This document shows, piece by piece, positions 120-20,776 of a stretch of DNA of 41,054 nucleotides. A program made the position numbers and the translations under genes. The DNA comes from a virus. The notes beneath the pieces were generated by a model. That model saw only the letters and a program-made list of their open reading frames with translations. It ran no database searches and was not told the origin of the DNA. The stretch is from positions 1-41,054 of IMG/VR virus record IMGVR_UViG_3300027844_001609. One strand, given 5' to 3'. Numbering within the stretch: the stretch's first letter is position 1; the number at the start of each line of letters is the position of its first letter.

Positions 120-497
120 TTAAGTATCTGAATTAACTTGGCCGGTATTATAATTTAATATAGCAGATACAAATGAATGATATACACCAAGAGCTTCAGG
201 CCTAGGACTCGAAACGATCATCACAAACTTTTTATCAATTTCATATCTGCCTAAATTAGCATTAGTAGGAAATGTATTGGGTGATAACCTTTCAACGTTG
301 CGGCTCAAATCCACATCCCATTCCATAGACCACCGAAATTGAACGGATTCTATTAATTCATATTTATCTCCCAAATCTCTAATTTTTGAGACCACTTCTT
401 CGCCGGTAGTTAATTTAAGTACCTTTAGTTCATGGTCAAAAACCGCTTTAGATAAGGCTGCATCATGGTCGATCCTATGATCATTCACTTCATTCAT
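120..497 (-). CDS. small Sm-like (SH3-barrel-like) phage protein
   Basis: 125 residues from the ATG at 497, which overlaps the stop of the previous gene as ATGA; this tight coupling is why I prefer it to the longer reading frame. Residues ~20-53 (core VLKLTTGEEVVSKI, then a GDKYELIESVQ strand) look like the LSm/SH3-barrel pattern of small proteins found in cyanophages and other marine T4-like phages. The rest is predicted beta-rich and ends in a polar tail. No enzyme motif is seen. An RNA- or protein-binding role is possible from the fold guess alone. It sits between a zinc-ribbon protein and IscU. Confidence 0.7.
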   Translation of the reverse strand: MNEVNDHRIDHDAALSKAVFDHELKVLKLTTGEEVVSKIRDLGDKYELIESVQFRWSMEWDVDLSRNVERLSPNTFPTNANLGRYEIDKKFVMIVSSPRPEALGVYHSFVSAILNYNTGQVNSDT

Positions 498-688
498 ATC
501 GGAAATCCTTCTTTCAATTTTGTTATTTGATAGTGACCACAATGAGGGCACCATAATTTTTCATTATCAGGGAGACTTAAATCCATCTCTAATTTACTAG
601 GAGTATGAGTATAACTCCACCATTCTTGACAACAGCCACAGGTAAAATGATATAAAATTTCTATTGTGTATTCATGAATTGGAGCCAT
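494..688 (-). CDS. small zinc-ribbon-like protein
   Basis: 64 residues. Two cysteine clusters, CGCC (residues 17-20) and CPHC (47-50) followed by H52, are spaced like a zinc ribbon, so it probably binds one zinc ion. Tryptophans and tyrosines lie between the clusters (EWWSYTH). Such small proteins are common in phages and may touch nucleic acid or a host protein, but I cannot assign a role. It is the first gene after a good sigma70-like promoter and its stop overlaps the next start by 4 nt. The ribosome site is weak. Confidence 0.7.
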   Translation of the reverse strand: MAPIHEYTIEILYHFTCGCCQEWWSYTHTPSKLEMDLSLPDNEKLWCPHCGHYQITKLKEGFPI

Positions 689-3283: not shown

Positions 3284-3652
3284 TTATTCTTTTGGAATAT
3301 CTGATTTAACTAGTGCAATAGCATCTTTCCATGTTGTAGTACCATTTATTTCATCATCATATAGCATTTCAAGTTGTGTGTCCCATTTTGGATATGAAGC
3401 CATCCGAAGCCTTGTCCATTCTGGCAGAGCTACCCACTCAGCATGTTCACCTTCTAGGCGCGCAAGATATGACGCGTTGTCGGTAGCCGTCTTATCCTCA
3501 ATAGCCTGCTGCCTGTCCATCTCAGCTTGTATAACATCAACAGCTATTTCAGTTGCACCTTCTTTCCATACAATACTATTAATGTCCTCACCCAGATAAT
3601 GAGTGTATTCTGCACCAAGTTCTGCTAGTGCATGTTTTATTTGAATAATCAT
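3284..3652 (-). CDS. tail-fibre-associated small protein
   Basis: 122 residues from ATG 3652, overlapping the preceding stop as ATGA; the longer open frame upstream lies inside the 592-residue gene and is not coding-like. The C-terminal half (RMASYPKWDTQLEMLYDD, TTWKDAIALVKS) carries the pattern YPxxxxQLxMLxxD...TWxxAIxxVK, which recurs at the ends of phage tail fibre or fibre-assembly proteins. It closes the adhesin cluster, so an assembly or fibre-tip role is plausible. No catalytic motif is seen. Confidence 0.65.
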   Translation of the reverse strand: MIIQIKHALAELGAEYTHYLGEDINSIVWKEGATEIAVDVIQAEMDRQQAIEDKTATDNASYLARLEGEHAEWVALPEWTRLRMASYPKWDTQLEMLYDDEINGTTTWKDAIALVKSDIPKE

Positions 3653-5427
3653 GTTTGTATCTCTTTTACTGTTAATGTTGAAGACTGCGACAGTATCTCC
3701 GCTGTCGTTGTTCCATTTACTCTGGCTGTTACTGTTACAGTAGCACCCTTTGCGATTGTGGACGTATATAAAAAGGAAGCAAAAACAGGCAGTATCCAAT
3801 CCGTTCCCACCGGTGAAGCTAACATCGTCTGTGCCTGGCCGCCTGGGCCGCCTTGTTGAATCCATTTATTATTGTAATATTGCGGATGCCCGCCTGACAT
3901 TCCGTTTCCTATCGCGATGGGATCAGAATGACCTAAATCTGAACTACCGTTAACGATCCATTGTAATCCAATTTGATCTCCATCTCCCAAAATAACCGCT
4001 GTCCGCGTCTGTAGTAAATATTTAGAATTAGCTGCTTTTGCTGTAAAAGTAACCGTTAATGGACCGCCCAACACATGTGTAAATGTTACGGGAGTGACTT
4101 GTCCAGAACCCAGTGCAGGCAGAGTCAAGGTTATTGTGGTAGCATCAACAATTGTTGCAACTGCGGTTCCATTAGTCAACCATCCGGCACCGGAAGTGGA
4201 CAGTACTGCTCCAGGCAAAATAGCTGGAGGAAAAGCAGTCGTGTAGTTAAATGTAGAAGAAGGGATCGCGGTTCCGCCTGAGCAAGGGAGCGCCGAGGAC
4301 AAATTTAACGATATCCTGGAGCTAGGAATATTTACAACCGTGAGATTAGTTGGGCCATATGAGCCGCCAGAAATGGTTGAGGCAGAAGAAGTACCTGAAG
4401 CTAACGGAGTAGAACTTAACGTCATTGCTGACGAACTAGTAAGTGCAGTAATCGTAGCCGTGCCACCCGCACCCGAAAGCCAATCCGTTGTCGATCCTGG
4501 ATTTGTAAATGTCAATGGGCCATATCCACTACCCACTGCAGGCTGGCTCATTATTATCGAAGTGGCGTTGACGACTATAGCTGTTGTTCCGCCGGCAATC
4601 CAACCTTGCGATCCGGATATTGTTGCTCCAACTAAAACTGGTCCGTATGGAGGGTTGTTGGTGAAAGTGAATCCACCTGCGTTAATGGTAGTCGAGCCGG
4701 CATTAACTGAGACTGAACCTCCATTAGGAGGGCCGGCCATTCCAGTAAAATATGAACTGCCGGTTACAACAGTAGGAGGAAGGGTAATGGTTGCTCCAAC
4801 TGTAATTCCTGCCGGTAGATTACCTGAGCTAGGGCTTATTGAAGTACTGGAAGTTGATAAAGTCCATGTTCCGGGAGTAATAGTAGGAGGAGTGGCTTGG
4901 CTTGGAACGAATTCCGATCCAACATGAATTCTGGTATCCATGAGGGCGCCGCCATTTGTGTTAAGCGCAGTTTGACCAGTAATTACAGTGTTCCATAAAC
5001 CTCCATCAGCGAATCCTTCGTTGAAGGTAGCAGTAGTTGAACCACCAGTGAACTGCCAGTTCTGCCCATCTGTAACGTTTGTTTCTCCAAAAGTTAGATC
5101 TGCAGCACTGGGCGCGCCCGATTTGGTCATGTTTGTTGATGATCCAACCATCGCATGTTCTTGGATTCCCGAACCACCAAAGTCAATCACGACACCAGGG
5201 CCTGTGGTTGTCGCTCCCGTAGTTGCTGCTATCTTTATCTGCTCTACACCTTGATCATCATTAAAAGAAATGTCCCCACCTGTTGCAGGCTGAAATATTA
5301 ATTTTTGATTAGGTCTGGCCTTTATGATAGTATCGCCAGAGGCAGGAACACTAATTATGTTTGTTCCGCCCTCATCCTGTATTTTCAGGTTATCACCTGT
5401 CCCTGCTTTTATAATTGAATCTGCCAT
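3649..5427 (-). CDS. fibre/adhesin protein, long paralogue with inserted repeat domain
   Basis: 592 residues, rich in Gly, Ser, Thr and Val, lacking charge. Residues 1-75 (MADSIIKAGTGDNLKIQD..., DISFNDDQGVEQIKIAATTG) and the last ~150 (TVTFTAKAANSKYLLQ to LTVKEIQ) align with the 252-residue gene next to it. The middle ~330 residues are extra and hold related beta-rich units with motifs such as GWIAGGTTAIVVNATSI and GWLTNGTAVATIVDATTI. AAGAGG precedes the ATG. Probably a virion surface fibre or decoration protein that diversified by insertion. No enzyme motif. Confidence 0.7.
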   Translation of the reverse strand: MADSIIKAGTGDNLKIQDEGGTNIISVPASGDTIIKARPNQKLIFQPATGGDISFNDDQGVEQIKIAATTGATTTGPGVVIDFGGSGIQEHAMVGSSTNMTKSGAPSAADLTFGETNVTDGQNWQFTGGSTTATFNEGFADGGLWNTVITGQTALNTNGGALMDTRIHVGSEFVPSQATPPTITPGTWTLSTSSTSISPSSGNLPAGITVGATITLPPTVVTGSSYFTGMAGPPNGGSVSVNAGSTTINAGGFTFTNNPPYGPVLVGATISGSQGWIAGGTTAIVVNATSIIMSQPAVGSGYGPLTFTNPGSTTDWLSGAGGTATITALTSSSAMTLSSTPLASGTSSASTISGGSYGPTNLTVVNIPSSRISLNLSSALPCSGGTAIPSSTFNYTTAFPPAILPGAVLSTSGAGWLTNGTAVATIVDATTITLTLPALGSGQVTPVTFTHVLGGPLTVTFTAKAANSKYLLQTRTAVILGDGDQIGLQWIVNGSSDLGHSDPIAIGNGMSGGHPQYYNNKWIQQGGPGGQAQTMLASPVGTDWILPVFASFLYTSTIAKGATVTVTARVNGTTTAEILSQSSTLTVKEIQT

Positions 5428-6458: not shown

Positions 6459-9400
6459 TTATGCACCATCAAAGCCGTAACCAACTCCATAATGTGTATA
6501 TTGTGTAGAACTAGTGTTTTCTGCTATTCCATTCCTTAATCCATAAAGATATGCTCCTTCTCCTATCGTATCTTCACCCATGCCGCCCATGGGGTTCGAG
6601 TGCGTGTGGACGAAGCTTTGGTAGCCCGGACCGTGTACGGTCATATCTGATAATGGAAATTGTGCGTGTTTGAACCGCGTTTGAAGGCCTTGCTGCAGTA
6701 TAGCAGATCCGCTGTTGTTGGGCGCTGAAAGACCTCTAAACTCAATAGCGGCGAATTGATAATTATATGCTTGTTTCCACATATCTGCTCCATGATTATA
6801 TTGACCATCTGTTGTTGCGAGGGTGCACATTCCAGTTGTATATTGTCCATAGAGATTTTCAGTTACATAATTAGGACTCTCATAATAGGGATCTGCTCCA
6901 TAGTTGCTGCAAGCTATCCAATGAAATCTAGGCGGCTGTCTACAACGTCCTCCGCCAACCTGAGCATTATCAATGAATATAGTTATTTGGGTCTTATAAT
7001 GATCAAAAACTGATGAGCCTTGACCACTGCCGGCAGTGAAAGCTTGTACGGGAACTATATCTCCATTTTGGCTACTCATTATTGTAGATGTTCCATCGGT
7101 TTTTAGCGTTGTGGCGCAATAAGCGTGCTTGGCGCCGGCCTTCGCGGCAGCATTAAAAACAATAGATGGGCTTAAAGGACTTGTAGATGAAGCCGTGTTC
7201 ATTTGTTGAATCCACATCTGCATTCCAAGGCGATCATTGAGTGCATAACATGATATACCTGGAATTTTTATCATGTATTGAGAATACCTGTGCTTGGATG
7301 AGGTCGCTAGTCCATAAGAAAGTGGAACTTTTAAAAGATGTGGAGAATCATTAGTTCCATACATCCAACCTCCTTCATAGCGTACAAGTCCTAAGTAATC
7401 CCATCCTAATCCCATCGGAATACGTGTACCGGATGCGTCCTCTGCGACCTTCGCAGCGCCCGTAGTGGAGGTCGAAAGATATGCCGGATACACTGGATTT
7501 ACACCATGAGCTGATGTTCCGCCGGATTCTATTGCACCTTTTGAAATGGAATCTAATGATGTTAAACTTGAACCATCGGTCAATCCTCCGCCACCTGTAA
7601 CGGTGTTTTCAATTGATCCTGCAACAACTGCTCCTACTCTTGTAATATTATCCTGAACAGCTGTATTAATTGTGCCTGTAAAATTTGTACCGGCGATAGT
7701 AGGTTGACCGGTAATACCCGATCCTAATACACCTGTTACATCAGTCCCAATAACATGACTTGAAGTTAATGTGCCTGTTGTAGCAGATAAATCAACTCCT
7801 GCACCAAGTACGCCGGTGGCTCGATTAGTTATATTAACTCCAAGATCAAGATCACCAGTTTTATTGTCTAAGAAATTATCATCATAGTTTGAAACTAAAG
7901 GTTGGGCATTTGTTAGTGTACCGGAACCCACTACATTAAAACCACCCGTAATAAGAGTCACTCCAGTTGGAGTTTCTTCTTCAAAAAGTTTTCCTAAACG
8001 TAAGACTCCATTAACAGTTAATTCACCTGTCTGTAGGAATGTTTCTGAAAGTAATAGCTTATCTGTGCCTACAGCAATAGTTTGTGCAGGAAGTGGGTAT
8101 GTAGAACCTGTAGGATATTTTTCTACTAATGATGATAAGGACTCAACCGCTCCACTACCGCCTCCTCCTCCAGCAGATGTTCCTACTCCGTCAGCAATTA
8201 ATAATTCTGTTGCTGAAAGCGCAGTTCCCGCGATAACAGAAGGTGTATCTGCAGTTGTAGATAAAGTTCCAGATGCATCTGATTGTAAATAATATACAGA
8301 ACCAGGTGTTAAACCTGATTGGGCATCATCAATAGCACCGCCAGTTTGAATTGTTGCTGTAGCCGCATCTGCATATGCTCCGTCAGAAATTCCTATGTAA
8401 TTAGTTGTAGTAATATTCGGAGTACCGGCTATATTAACTGCTCCAGTAGTAAATTTGGTTTTTCCCGATCCGGCAACATAACCACCGGAGCTGGAACCAT
8501 CACCGTCAAACATGTGATTAACCATTAATTTAGTTCCGGAAGCATTCAATGCAGCAGTAAATTTTTCGTAACCGGAATTACTGTTCCAGGTATGACCATT
8601 CTCAGGTCCTGGAGTCATTTCCGTCGGAGTACCGTCAGCAGTTATTGTCGTTCCCGAGCCTGTAAGTAAAAATCTTTGTGCGTTGATTGTCTGTGAGTAA
8701 TAAGAGGCGCCTGATGCAGGGCTCCATACACCGAAAAATTTGTCAGCATCATTGGGGTCCCAGGATATTTGCACTGGAGAAGCACCGCCATAATTCCAGC
8801 CTTGTCCGGAATCCAAAACAAAAAGTGAACCAAAAGTCACGCCGGTTCCTGCTACTGTTCCTAATACTAATTCCGGTGTTTCGGTGTAGTTAGCATTTTT
8901 CCGCCTGAATGAAAATAAGAGTTGATTTTGTCTATTGGGATTCCATTCCATGTAGTGATCATTTTCTGATCCTTCTGTGCTTCCGATTCCGAAATGAATC
9001 TGAATTGCGGAACCTTTAGTCATAGTAGTTGCGTTCGAGGCAAGCTCAATAATAACCATTCTAGGTTCACCACCGTTGTGGTTCGCAAACGTAGCAAAAA
9101 ATTTGCCTTCCGTAAAAGGATCAAATCGACAACTTCTAATTCTAACAACACCACCGGTATATGTTCGATTGTCCAAACGATAAGCTGTTGTGCTAGCCGT
9201 CAACGTATGTGGTCCGGCTCCAACAGGTGAAATTATAGCTGATCCAGCATTATGGAGTTTCTCTCCGCTTGTTCCACCAACCGCAAATTCATTTTGCCAA
9301 GCGCATCTAAATCCTGTTCCTGTAAACTGTGAATCCCAATCGAATGAGAATGTAGCATCAGGAGTGCCCTGCTGGGAACCTCCAGAACAGTCTTGTCCTG

Positions 9401-12400
9401 CTTCAAAATCAAGTAAAGGATACCAGCTAAGTGATGTTCCTGTTACAGTTGCAACACCAAAGTGTGCGCCGTTGGTTTGTGTAGCGCCGGTTCCGTCAGT
9501 ACCGTATACAGCTCCTATCAAATTAGCTTGGGTAGGATGAAATTTAAAAGAAATCATACTACCACCTTGAGGTGCAGCGGTTTCAATATCTACTGGAGTA
9601 CCCCATGATATAGTTGTGCCTGTTAGTGTACCAACTACCATCTGCAAATAAGTTCCAGTTGCACCGGAACTATCCCAATATCCTACTACGAATTTATTAT
9701 CGTCATTCGGATCAAAGTCTATAGTTGATCCCCATCTATCATTCCTTATATCGCCATTGACCCCTTGAAGAGCTGTACCCTGAGCATCAGTACTAACTCC
9801 TAGTGCTCCTTGTGGAATGGCATGTTCAACTTTTCCATCTGAGCGAAGAATAACTCTATCTCCATCAGCTAATGCACCGGAAGCTACAGCTTCAAATCTT
9901 CCGGAACCCGGAACTGCGTCAGCAGAAGTCCAATTTGTTCCATCACTTGTTAGAAGTTTTCCTGCTGTTCCTGCTACTGGTAATCCGGGATCTGTCTCAG
10001 CGTTGGAAACCCAATTTGTTCCATCACTTTTTAAAACGTATCCGGCTAATCCTGGAGTTGGTAATTCCGCTTCATCTCCGGAAATCCAATTTGTTCCATC
10101 ACTTTTTAAAACTTTTCCGGCCACTCCTGCTGTTGGTAATTCCACTGGAGCATCTCCGGAAGTCCAATTTGTTCCATCACTTGTTAAAATTTTTCCTGTT
10201 GTTCCTGGTAATGGTAATTGCGAACCCACCACGCCTGGACGAGTGGCAGCAATTAATAATTCTGTTGCTGAAAGTGCTGTGCCAGCGAAAACGGAAGGTG
10301 TACCTGAAGTTGTAGCTAAAGACCCATTAGGTTGTATGTAATATGTAGAACCGGTTGTTAGGCCCGATTGAGCATCATCTGTAGCTCCAGAAAGTTGAAT
10401 TGTTGCTGTTGCTCCATCAGCATATACACCATCGGAAATTCCTAAGAAATTATCTACAGTAAGATTTGTTACTCCTTCTGATCCGATTGTACCAGTAGTA
10501 AGTTGAGTATCTCCAGTCGTTTCAGTATGGCTCACCATAAATTTCCTTCCGGAAGCCGATGCCGCAGCGTGCCAAGGATAAGTTAGAGTATTATCAAACC
10601 AGTCGTGATCAGCAATTGTTACCGGGGAACCAACCTCCGTTATAGTAGTACCAGTAATATTAAAGGCTTGGCATATGAGGTCAGCTGACGAGGAAAAAGC
10701 GGTTGTTACGCCGTAAAATCTACCTTGAGCGGCGCCGAGTGCAAAGAAAATATTCCATGGTTGTGACGGTGCGGTGTACCCTGGATGGGAAGCCTCCCAG
10801 TCTGTGGCAGTTGGGGTAAACCTAGTTCCCCAAGATACTGAAGTTCCACTTACTGTTCCTACGCACATTGTAGCGGGATTATATGTCTTACCTGAAAATA
10901 CGATTTGGTTTGCTATAGCAGGATTCCATTCACAGTAGGCCCCGTCATCACTATTATCTACACCTTGTCCCGTAAGCTGTATTTCTGAACCCAAACTAGG
11001 ATAATTATTTGAATCTAAATTAACTATGCGTAAAGCGTGACCTATTCCGCCTCCTCCTGAAGGGTAATGATGTATCCAAAAGAATTTCTTGTGAGTATTA
11101 GGATCAAATCGTAAAGATTTAATTTGTCCACCGCCCCATTGATAATTACCAGCAGTGAAAAGCCCTCGTGGCCATGTTGCTGAACCTGGAGTTATAGTAG
11201 TAGCGTCCACAGTAACTTTACCTGCTCTCAAAACTGGCATTCGATAGTTAACTGCACCGGAATAATCAAACCAAACATCCATGCCACAAGCATATTCTCT
11301 GGTACTACCACTTGAATTGCGATCCCAATCAAAGCAGAAATTACCTTTTTCGAAATGAGGTACACTCGAGCCGTATGAAGCACCCAGATGCATATTAAGA
11401 GAAGATTTGGGCACAAATCGCGCAGTCGGTGCGTTTTCAATCATTCCAAATGTAAGTATTGGACTTTTTGTACCCATATAGTCGGCGCCGTATGCAATTG
11501 CTACCAAATCAGCTACATCTGGATGAAAATGTATAGCAACAGGACTACTATCGTTATCCGTAGTGATATCAACTGGAGTACCTAATGTTATAGTTGTACC
11601 AGATATTGTTCCTACTACGGCCCTTGGATAACCTGTTCCAACTGGCGCGTTTTCGTCTTTATATCCTATGATGAATCTATTCTCGTCAAGTGGATCCCAA
11701 GAAATGAACGCTTTCTGCTGTGGTTGATCTGTTTGACTACTGCCTTGAGCCACTGTAGGTTCATCCATCCTTCCACCCATCGTTTGCGATTGAGTATCGG
11801 TAGTTGGAGTATCCAGCGGTGCCGGATTATTGGCAACTAGTTTAACCTTTCCATCTGCCTGAAGAATAACTTTATTTCCATTTGCCAAAGATCCAGATGC
11901 AACAATTTGTAAAGTATCGACGGCGTAAGCTGCGGCGACTCCTGCTGCTTGAGCGGATGCTTGAGCCGCATTTGCTTTAGTGGTTGCGTCGGTTGCTGCA
12001 CTGGACAATACTGTCGCTTCGGCTGCTACTCTAGTAATTTGATGTGCTGTTATAGCTGCGGTTGCTGCAGTTCTATCTAGTGTGATGTCTTTTAACACGG
12101 CAGAATCAGCTAATAATATTTTCGTTGTGCCAACTGCCGTTCCCACTAAAACTTCCGGTGTATTCGCAGTTGCAGATAAGACTCCATCTCCTTGTAAATA
12201 ATATTTGGTTCCTATTGTTAAACCTGATTGTGCATCGTCAACTGCGCCGGGAAGTTGAATTGTTGCTGTCGCGCCGCTTGCATATGCATCATCGGAAATA
12301 CCTAAGAAATTAGTTGCAGTAAGATTGGTTCCGGCTGAACCATAAAACGTAGATTGTGTGAACACAGGATCATTGGAAGGGTTTAAACCCTGGTAATAGA

Positions 12401-13721
12401 AAGCAAGTATTTTACTTCCAGTACTGGCAGCTTGGGGTGTCTTTGCAAAATTGCTTTCGGACTGAGTAGTTACGAGGTTAGTGGGATGTGAAATTTCTGT
12501 CCTGGTGTAAGGGGCAGATATGGTTGTACCGGTCCATGAAAAGGCTTGATGAAATAATGCGCCGTACATGCCCTGTGTATTTATATATCCTACAGCGAAA
12601 ATTTTGTCTGCAAGAAACTCCATTATCCGCCATGGTGTTTTAACACCATATCCAGAAGTATGTATCTCAAGTGGGGCTCCTATTGTTAGAGTAGTTCCTG
12701 AAACAGTTGCAATTGCAATTGCAGGTTTATCACCATGGTTATCGCGGCACCATGATATTAATACAAGATCGGAGACCGCGGTATTCCACATTAATTCAGA
12801 ATGAGAATACCGGTCAGCTCCACCACTTGCGTCGAGTTTGACTGCGGTGCCGAGGGTAATGGTAGTTCCTGATATAGTACCAATTCTCATCTGCATGTCT
12901 TGACTAGCGTGAACAGGTTGCACATATGCAAACTTACCTGCAGTATTCGGATCGAATGCAATAGGTCTTTCCCATGTATTGGTACCAATATTTGAGCCGT
13001 TATTTGTTTGTAGCATATGATCTGCCTGGCCCACGGTTCCGAAGGCAACTGAGCCACCATTGTCAGCGCATGTTCCGGCCATCAGATAAGTTTCGGTGCT
13101 TGAGCCCATCACGGGATCGTGATTGGCTTCCCAAGATAGAAGAAACCGATTTGTTGCGTTACCGGATCCTGTATACGCAGTATCCCAATCAAACATTGTA
13201 TAAGCCCCGTAATAATCCATTGGCATACCGCTCGAGGGCATGTTTGTCATGCCGGATGATCCGGATCCAATGATGAACAGACCAGAAGAACCACCATAAG
13301 ACAACAGAATTATCTTCATCCCATTCATTCCATCTGCCTGACCTATCGCGATTAAAGGGCTCTGCGGGGGCGTCCCTGGAATCATGGTGGAAGGATGATA
13401 TTTTACTTTCGGGGCGTAGCCATGCGCCGTCCAAGGCATTATAAAAGGAGACAGAGGAAATGATATAGTTGAACCACTTATTGTACCTACACTAGCAGCC
13501 ATTACATATTGTGAAACGTCTCTATAAATTATCACAAATTTATTTGGATCATTCGGATCAAAATCAACAGACTGGTATTGCGCAGCATTGGTTGAGTTGT
13601 GGGCTTGGGTTCTTGTGTTGGAACCATCATCTGCGAGCGGTGCTGTTATATACCCAATAGGATTTGAGACTATTTCAACTGTTCCATCTGATTTAAGAAT
13701 AACTGATTGTCCATCAGACAA
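6459..13721 (-). CDS. giant repetitive tail fibre/adhesin (~2420 residues)
   Basis: The longest gene here. Three ~550-residue units lie at about 13740-12090, 11915-10260 and 9893-8195. Each opens with a head like ADGDRVILRSDGKVE, holds repeated FDPNDPNKF and VGTISGTTI beta segments (propeller-like), and closes with a GISDxxYAxxATATIQ...DDAQSGL module. An Ala-rich helix links units 1 and 2; four short LxxxGxxGKxLxSDGTNWxS repeats link units 2 and 3. The last ~570 residues are a different fibre and tip region. The nearest usable start after an in-frame stop is TTG at 13721, which cuts off coding-like sequence upstream (see the next entry). Likely the host-recognition fibre. Confidence 0.75.
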   Translation of the reverse strand: MSDGQSVILKSDGTVEIVSNPIGYITAPLADDGSNTRTQAHNSTNAAQYQSVDFDPNDPNKFVIIYRDVSQYVMAASVGTISGSTISFPLSPFIMPWTAHGYAPKVKYHPSTMIPGTPPQSPLIAIGQADGMNGMKIILLSYGGSSGLFIIGSGSSGMTNMPSSGMPMDYYGAYTMFDWDTAYTGSGNATNRFLLSWEANHDPVMGSSTETYLMAGTCADNGGSVAFGTVGQADHMLQTNNGSNIGTNTWERPIAFDPNTAGKFAYVQPVHASQDMQMRIGTISGTTITLGTAVKLDASGGADRYSHSELMWNTAVSDLVLISWCRDNHGDKPAIAIATVSGTTLTIGAPLEIHTSGYGVKTPWRIMEFLADKIFAVGYINTQGMYGALFHQAFSWTGTTISAPYTRTEISHPTNLVTTQSESNFAKTPQAASTGSKILAFYYQGLNPSNDPVFTQSTFYGSAGTNLTATNFLGISDDAYASGATATIQLPGAVDDAQSGLTIGTKYYLQGDGVLSATANTPEVLVGTAVGTTKILLADSAVLKDITLDRTAATAAITAHQITRVAAEATVLSSAATDATTKANAAQASAQAAGVAAAYAVDTLQIVASGSLANGNKVILQADGKVKLVANNPAPLDTPTTDTQSQTMGGRMDEPTVAQGSSQTDQPQQKAFISWDPLDENRFIIGYKDENAPVGTGYPRAVVGTISGTTITLGTPVDITTDNDSSPVAIHFHPDVADLVAIAYGADYMGTKSPILTFGMIENAPTARFVPKSSLNMHLGASYGSSVPHFEKGNFCFDWDRNSSGSTREYACGMDVWFDYSGAVNYRMPVLRAGKVTVDATTITPGSATWPRGLFTAGNYQWGGGQIKSLRFDPNTHKKFFWIHHYPSGGGGIGHALRIVNLDSNNYPSLGSEIQLTGQGVDNSDDGAYCEWNPAIANQIVFSGKTYNPATMCVGTVSGTSVSWGTRFTPTATDWEASHPGYTAPSQPWNIFFALGAAQGRFYGVTTAFSSSADLICQAFNITGTTITEVGSPVTIADHDWFDNTLTYPWHAAASASGRKFMVSHTETTGDTQLTTGTIGSEGVTNLTVDNFLGISDGVYADGATATIQLSGATDDAQSGLTTGSTYYIQPNGSLATTSGTPSVFAGTALSATELLIAATRPGVVGSQLPLPGTTGKILTSDGTNWTSGDAPVELPTAGVAGKVLKSDGTNWISGDEAELPTPGLAGYVLKSDGTNWVSNAETDPGLPVAGTAGKLLTSDGTNWTSADAVPGSGRFEAVASGALADGDRVILRSDGKVEHAIPQGALGVSTDAQGTALQGVNGDIRNDRWGSTIDFDPNDDNKFVVGYWDSSGATGTYLQMVVGTLTGTTISWGTPVDIETAAPQGGSMISFKFHPTQANLIGAVYGTDGTGATQTNGAHFGVATVTGTSLSWYPLLDFEAGQDCSGGSQQGTPDATFSFDWDSQFTGTGFRCAWQNEFAVGGTSGEKLHNAGSAIISPVGAGPHTLTASTTAYRLDNRTYTGGVVRIRSCRFDPFTEGKFFATFANHNGGEPRMVIIELASNATTMTKGSAIQIHFGIGSTEGSENDHYMEWNPNRQNQLLFSFRRKNANYTETPELVLGTVAGTGVTFGSLFVLDSGQGWNYGGASPVQISWDPNDADKFFGVWSPASGASYYSQTINAQRFLLTGSGTTITADGTPTEMTPGPENGHTWNSNSGYEKFTAALNASGTKLMVNHMFDGDGSSSGGYVAGSGKTKFTTGAVNIAGTPNITTTNYIGISDGAYADAATATIQTGGAIDDAQSGLTPGSVYYLQSDASGTLSTTADTPSVIAGTALSATELLIADGVGTSAGGGGGSGAVESLSSLVEKYPTGSTYPLPAQTIAVGTDKLLLSETFLQTGELTVNGVLRLGKLFEEETPTGVTLITGGFNVVGSGTLTNAQPLVSNYDDNFLDNKTGDLDLGVNITNRATGVLGAGVDLSATTGTLTSSHVIGTDVTGVLGSGITGQPTIAGTNFTGTINTAVQDNITRVGAVVAGSIENTVTGGGGLTDGSSLTSLDSISKGAIESGGTSAHGVNPVYPAYLSTSTTGAAKVAEDASGTRIPMGLGWDYLGLVRYEGGWMYGTNDSPHLLKVPLSYGLATSSKHRYSQYMIKIPGISCYALNDRLGMQMWIQQMNTASSTSPLSPSIVFNAAAKAGAKHAYCATTLKTDGTSTIMSSQNGDIVPVQAFTAGSGQGSSVFDHYKTQITIFIDNAQVGGGRCRQPPRFHWIACSNYGADPYYESPNYVTENLYGQYTTGMCTLATTDGQYNHGADMWKQAYNYQFAAIEFRGLSAPNNSGSAILQQGLQTRFKHAQFPLSDMTVHGPGYQSFVHTHSNPMGGMGEDTIGEGAYLYGLRNGIAENTSSTQYTHYGVGYGFDGA

Positions 13722-13955
13722 TGCTCCGGTTGCAATGGCTTCTGTTGAACCACCGCCTCCGCCTGCTGATACTGCGGAAACCCAATTTGTTCCGTCATGT
13801 GTTAAAACTTCATCTAAAGCGCCTGCTGGTAAATTGAGATGGCCTGGATCTGCAGTAGTCCAATTTCCAGCGCCATCGCTTTTTAAAACTTGATCTGTTG
13901 TGCCGGGATCCGGAATTCAGGAATCGAACGTAAAGGGTGATCCTAAATATGCCAT
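13722..13955 (-). pseudogene. 5' extension of the giant fibre gene, interrupted by in-frame TGA
   Basis: ATG at 13955 has a good GGAG ribosome site and follows the previous stop by 1 nt. It encodes MAYLGSPFTFDS and then TGA (13919-13917). After the TGA the same frame stays open and coding-like into the 2420-residue protein: TDQVLKSDGAGNWTTAD and LDEVLTHDGTNWVSA are the same SDGTNW repeats found inside the protein. No ATG, GTG or TTG occurs between the TGA and 13721. Explanations are a nonsense mutation (one base from GGA Gly), a sequencing or assembly error, readthrough, or a leader peptide with reinitiation. Confidence 0.7.
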
Positions 13956-13956
13956 T

Positions 13957-14286
13957 TTATGTAATCTCCAAGAAAGACATTAATACATCCAAACTAGATG
14001 CGGTATCTGATGTTACGACGATTCTGTCCCCTACCATTAAAACAACTTTCTGATCACCGCCAATTGCTATTAAGCTAGAATTAGCAGGTATGGGTACGTC
14101 TTTAACTATATTCGTTACATTTGTTCCATCACTCATAGCAATAGTTGCTTTGACTTGAGAAGCGGTTATATTTGCGCATGACAACCCTATTACTGTAACT
14201 TCAGTGCCAGCTGGAACAGCTGATCCGACATCTGTAGCCGATGTTCCAATTGATCTTACTGTGGTATTCTTAAAAGTACTTGCCAT
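13957..14286 (-). CDS. small virion/fibre-associated protein
   Basis: 109 residues, beta-rich and nearly uncharged (MASTFKNTTVRSIGTSATDVGSAVP...GDRIVVTSDTASSLDVLMSFLEIT). The pattern of a short barrel-like protein with an alternating hydrophobic C-terminus occurs among small structural proteins of marine T4-like phages. AAAAGGAT precedes the ATG. The stop is 1 nt from the best start of the giant fibre gene, so the two are translationally coupled. Exact role unknown. Confidence 0.65.
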   Translation of the reverse strand: MASTFKNTTVRSIGTSATDVGSAVPAGTEVTVIGLSCANITASQVKATIAMSDGTNVTNIVKDVPIPANSSLIAIGGDQKVVLMVGDRIVVTSDTASSLDVLMSFLEIT

Positions 14287-20104: not shown

Positions 20105-20261
20105 ATTCTTCTTCCTCCTCTCCTTCGGTTTCATCGAATTCATCGTCGATATAAGTATTAGCCAACTCTTTATTGAGCCGACGATGTTTTTTTGACATTT
20201 TTTTCAAAACGTCTTTACTAAAACTCTCTCTTGTTTTTTGTTGTTTAAATGACTTTGCCAT
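20097..20261 (-). CDS. small hypothetical protein with acidic tail
   Basis: A 54-residue frame, ATG 20261 to TAA 20097, overlapping the end of the deformylase gene by 58 nt and the start of queD by 8 nt. It begins MAKSFKQQKTRESF, is basic to about residue 33, then ends in DETEGEEEEEYE. The Glu-rich stretch doubles as the purine-rich ribosome site of queD. No clear Shine-Dalgarno of its own; an internal ATG at 20198 would give 33 residues. It may be a real coupling gene or a by-product of the region's purine bias. Confidence 0.4.
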   Translation of the reverse strand: MAKSFKQQKTRESFSKDVLKKMSKKHRRLNKELANTYIDDEFDETEGEEEEEYE

Positions 20262-20776
20262 AGTGTTGGACTCGAGGTTTTTATTTTTTTAAGTTGAGAT
20301 CTCCGTTTTTTCCTCGCATTTTGTATATGAAGTTGACTAGCCCCTTCATAAAAAATCTTTCCTTTTATATGATCCATTTCATGTAAAAAGATGCGAGCAG
20401 ATAAATCAGAAAAATAACCATTAAGAGGTTTGTTTTCGGCATCCTCCCAAGATGCAGATAAACTCTTAGGTCTACTTATTTTAATATATAATCCGGGATA
20501 TGTCAAGCAACCTTCGGTTTCCCAAACAAATTCTTCCGACTCTTCAATAATTTGAGGATTAAATAATACCATGCCATTTCCTTCATGATTCATAGCGAAT
20601 GCACTATATTGATAACCTATCTGATTTGCAGATAATCCTACCCCATCATAATATTTCATGTTTTCTATTAATTCATCTCTAAATTCAATAGGATCAATCG
20701 GAGGGCTCCAGAAACTAAATGGAATAGTTTCCCGTTCTAATAATTCATGCCCTTCTGGTAATAAAGATTTAATCAT
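20204..20776 (-). CDS. def: peptide deformylase
   Basis: 190 residues. All three motifs are present: GVGLSANQ (45-52), EGCLTYPG (88-95, usual EGCLS) and HEMDH (132-136). C90, H132 and H136 bind the metal and E133 is the catalytic base. The enzyme removes formyl groups from new proteins. Phage deformylases in marine T4-like viruses are thought to speed maturation of phage or host proteins during infection. Unlike the short core enzyme usual in phages, it carries a basic tail of ~45 residues (KKRRSQLKK...). The start overlaps the gp46 stop as ATGA. Confidence 0.92.
   Translation of the reverse strand: MIKSLLPEGHELLERETIPFSFWSPPIDPIEFRDELIENMKYYDGVGLSANQIGYQYSAFAMNHEGNGMVLFNPQIIEESEEFVWETEGCLTYPGLYIKISRPKSLSASWEDAENKPLNGYFSDLSARIFLHEMDHIKGKIFYEGASQLHIQNARKKRRSQLKKIKTSSPTLWQSHLNNKKQERVLVKTF

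Follow-up and report, generated by a model that had tools for sequence, protein, structure and literature searches.

The analysed stretch of DNA, referred to below as the window, is a 41,054-base virus contig (IMG/VR record IMGVR_UViG_3300027844_001609). Its head, portal, sheath and terminase genes match T4-type families (PHROG matches), and its major head protein shares 65-67% identity with that of Methylophilales phage Melnitz and those of several cyanophages; judged by these gene matches, the contig is part of a T4-like marine myovirus genome. It carries a giant fibre gene preceded by a small gene, with the following organisation:

6459..13955, minus strand: giant fibre gene, broken at codon 13 in the window; intact relatives have 2,498 sense codons and a TAA
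13722..13955, minus strand: the 78 codons of the fibre's conserved N-terminal module, which is lost with a restart at TTG 13721
13957..14286, minus strand: small gene (109 aa) immediately upstream of the fibre, a synteny anchor kept in 21 loci

The fibre frame begins with ATG 13955-13953, reads MAYLGSPFTFDS and meets TGA 13919-13917 after exactly 12 codons, beyond which it is open as far as the TAA at 6461-6459. The program-made list of open reading frames begins the fibre only at TTG 13721 (2,420 aa). The initial annotation had proposed a well-supported start at 13955, a TGA after 12 codons and a continuing frame; these coordinates are correct and the start is kept in relatives. The start is well supported because the ATG directly follows the TAA of the upstream gene and because TTGGAGATTACATAAAATG at the fibre start is conserved in relatives, including the distant contigs L009, L010 and L060. 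The stretch 13955-13721 is, on comparative grounds, genuine coding sequence, since it can be aligned to the N-terminal end of this protein in relatives and shows a dN/dS of about 0.27-0.29 in divergent comparisons. The N-terminal module is 73% identical to that of L009 and 53% identical to that of L010. The dN/dS of the whole fibre gene is high, 0.68-0.88 between close relatives, as against the 0.27-0.29 of the N-terminus between more distant ones. Searches of PHROGs, Pfam and PDB sequences with the fibre protein (window 6459-13721) gave no match; among GenBank phages no homologue of the fibre N-terminus and a single weak match to the remainder of the fibre were found.

Codon 13 in related contigs

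The relatives comprise seven contigs, at least two of them from one population. Six are IMG/VR contigs with this fibre start, retrieved in searches by upstream gene, fibre and N-terminal profile, and the seventh, L060, is a contig inside a bacterial MAG recovered in a scan of genome contigs. The state of the codon is as follows:

13917..13919, minus strand: in-frame TGA, codon 13; CGA in L027, L029, L028, L026 and L009, CGG in L010 and L060

The comparison with close relatives that the initial annotation had called for thus gave an arginine codon in all seven contigs and TGA in none, and the sense codon it had offered as an example, GGA, proved wrong in detail, as relatives read CGA. From the same ATG the fibre is open for 2,498 codons in both L027 and L029, 2,494 in L028 and 2,478 in L026, so that a sense codon, CGA, and an intact frame occur together in these four close relatives, as a private nonsense allele would have it. 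L028 and L026 are about 94-96% identical relatives; L009, L010 and L060 are more distant and keep arginine at the aligned codon 13. Among 40 window genes compared with relatives the fibre is the only one interrupted by a stop, genes at the edge or with weak homologues being less certain; this comparison was made by alignment to relatives, as a list of open reading frames alone cannot reveal broken genes.

Some of the relatives show peculiarities of their own. In L010 (9332-14316) and L060 (3001-6183), contigs that are 97.6% identical, the fibre homologue is divided into two ORFs after codon 883, where stop and start overlap as ATGA, the second ORF in L010 being open for about 785 codons. The dN/dS of the first half between these two contigs is 0.24, while changes in the second half are too few for an estimate. 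This split differs from the window TGA in both site and arrangement. In L009 (9332-15476) two further ORFs come after the 1,278-aa fibre gene: one of about 119 aa (13212-13568), whose likeness to the small protein encoded just upstream of the fibre was judged by eye only, and next a fibre-like one of 632 aa. Outside the fibre, the L028 peptide deformylase, the homologue of window 20204-20776, has a TAA five codons before the usual end, which is probably harmless. Window ORFs 3284-3865 and 3649-5427 lie on the same strand in different frames with a 217-base overlap. L028 and L029 conserve both, and the smaller ORF may have been called too far upstream.

A three-base patch in near-identical sequence

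Contigs L027 and L029, which come from two other samples, show no difference from each other across 19,612 bases, over which the window differs from them at three positions (13826, 13919 and 13923), all within 98 bp. Besides the first base of the TGA, these are:

13923, minus strand: Asp11 reads GAT against GAC in the near-identical contigs, a private synonymous difference; L009 and L010 likewise have GAT
13826, minus strand: codon 44 reads GCA (Ala) against TCA (Ser) in the near-identical contigs, a private difference; L009 shares the G at the first base

The simulated chance of all three differences falling within 98 bp of 19.6 kb is 6.7e-5. Over the 28 kb common with L029 only two further substitutions are found outside the variable left edge, and the clustering of three of the five differences has a simulated chance of 3.6e-4. 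The rest of the 7.5-kb fibre gene contains no other difference from L027 and L029, as expected of a very recent change. Such clustering is compatible with strain variation confined to a short stretch as well as with poor coverage there. Two of the three private bases are alleles present in L009 or L010, for which about 5% is expected by random substitution; these matches tip the balance modestly towards real variation, leaving the TGA itself unproven by them.

The window haplotype was sought in other contigs, where an 18-base pattern containing the TGA gave five unrelated hits and longer patterns gave none. Templating from another copy in the window was rejected, as no other part of the window matches the TGA stretch beyond chance. 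A separate zone of sharp divergence from the otherwise near-identical L029 lies in the gene at window 120-554, where 300 bp contain about 43 substitutions and a 9-base indel. L028 nevertheless encodes an identical protein, and contig L027 also ends at this breakpoint, so by its sequence pattern this patch is a recombination or strain breakpoint.

Interpretation of the in-frame TGA

Seven window genes end in TGA, and their counterparts in relatives use TGA, TAA or TAG as stops. The terminase gene, one of those ending in TGA, stops one codon before its relatives and has further stops immediately after. The initial annotation had observed that other genes end in TGA and had considered genome-wide recoding unlikely, and both statements hold: a code 4-like reassignment of TGA was rejected on this stop codon usage. 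Among the explanations it had listed, a nonsense-silenced adhesin and a base-call error survive, whereas readthrough, reinitiation and phase variation are disfavoured.

Because relatives have CGA or CGG and intact frames, and TGA is a normal stop, the TGA is best explained as a private nonsense change (CGA Arg13 to TGA) in one haplotype of a T4-like marine phage population, a reading that we regard as probable, if with limited confidence. The 98-bp patch would then represent real strain-level variation, which may have arisen by recent mutation, by acquisition of a short recombined stretch, or through the merging of two co-occurring strains by the assembler. Translation of the TGA haplotype would terminate after 12 residues, yielding no or very little full-length fibre, because no usable restart precedes TTG 13721 and a restart there drops the conserved N-terminal module. 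Traces of full-length fibre could come from background misreading of UGA. Two considerations weigh against the nonsense allele: the window haplotype is represented by a single assembly and was found in no other contig, and selection should act against so early a stop, at codon 13, in a large and conserved structural gene. It is very unlikely, if somewhat less so than the readthrough discussed below, that the TGA allele is both real and common in its sample, with the fibre traded away or made in a few copies via leaky UGA readthrough.

The principal competitor holds that the TGA is an error of base calling or of a low-coverage consensus in the metagenome assembly and that the actual phage has an arginine codon; this is a serious possibility, though it appears less probable than the nonsense allele. 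All three differences are absent from the two near-identical contigs, three changes in 98 bp are what one bad read or a thinly covered patch would leave, and since about 4% of random single-base changes in the fibre gene create a stop, one stop among three errors would not be rare. An error is, however, harder to reconcile with the agreement of two of the three bases with alleles of relatives and with the fact that no other window gene appears broken. Programmed readthrough or recoding of UGA (by tryptophan, selenocysteine or a suppressor tRNA), which would provide a regulated amount of full-length fibre, is consistent with the frame being open beyond the TGA and with the following base, an A, which in E. 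coli makes UGA a comparatively leaky stop. It is nevertheless highly improbable. Arginine is invariant at codon 13, TGA occurs in no relative found, and TGA terminates ordinary genes. The 63-nt fold of the RNA downstream of the TGA is no better than those of shuffled sequences (z = +0.71), and no Rfam family matched. The window, which is part of a genome, contains no suppressor tRNA and no tRNA at all, and two larger relatives contain no UGA-suppressor tRNA, ARAGORN calling Asn, Tyr, Val and Cys only. Selenocysteine insertion and programmed readthrough are each unsupported because every homologue has arginine; the former was rejected since this residue is neither selenocysteine nor cysteine and no significant fold follows the UGA, and the latter since the stop is not conserved, with arginine in the seven relatives, and lacks a 3' stimulatory RNA element.

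Less probable than readthrough is a phase-variable adhesin in which the TGA is the OFF state of a reversible switch. Fibres are adhesins, and the intact copies in near-identical contigs resemble an ON state, but the change is a base substitution. Neither a slippage tract nor an inverted repeat, as slipped-strand or inversion switching would use, was found in 13750-14050, where there are only weak coding repeats, and no reverse transcriptase was recognised among the scanned genes, giving no sign of a diversity-generating retroelement. The least probable of all these explanations is reinitiation, whereby a restart downstream of the stop at codon 13 would produce a shorter working fibre. The ORF from TTG 13721 is open for 2,420 codons, and the ATGA stop/start overlap in the L010 and L060 homologues shows that the family can tolerate a split fibre. 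Codons 14-78, however, contain no ATG, GTG or TTG (65 codons), a restart at 13721 loses the most conserved module, and no such arrangement exists at the codon 13 site in relatives.

Interrupted fibre genes in other phages

Nonsense SNPs in the tail-fibre genes of nearly identical phages have already been published, and in this respect the window case is ordinary. Among T5-like isolates that differ by 2-5 nucleotides, three (saus132, poul149 and chee158) have premature stops in a tail-fibre gene, with no effect on host range noted (PMC5816814). As in the window, these are phages a few nucleotides apart with premature stops in a tail-fibre gene, but they are sequenced isolates that tolerate the stop, whereas the present case is a single contig from a metagenome, belonging to a T4-like marine phage known from sequence alone. 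In the host-range mutant 812K1/420 of a Staphylococcus phage, the tail-fibre gene orf119 is split by a premature stop owing to a 77-bp deletion (PMC6445280). Here too a tail-fibre gene is interrupted in one member of a near-clonal set, although by a deletion in an isolated host-range mutant rather than by a substitution. The code 15 crAss-like phages, for which recoding of TAG to Gln has been demonstrated by proteomics (PMC9523058), likewise have in-frame stop codons within structural genes; however, they recode genome-wide, while the window has one such TGA and otherwise uses TGA as a normal stop.

As a single case the TGA has little significance by itself, but it illustrates how a private stop codon can be told apart from recoding by comparing near-identical contigs. 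It is also a warning that gene callers will truncate such genes, here to TTG 13721. If the allele is real, it would represent natural fibre loss in an uncultured marine T4-like phage, and if it were in fact common, the nonsense codon would serve as a natural means of tuning the number of fibres or the host range.
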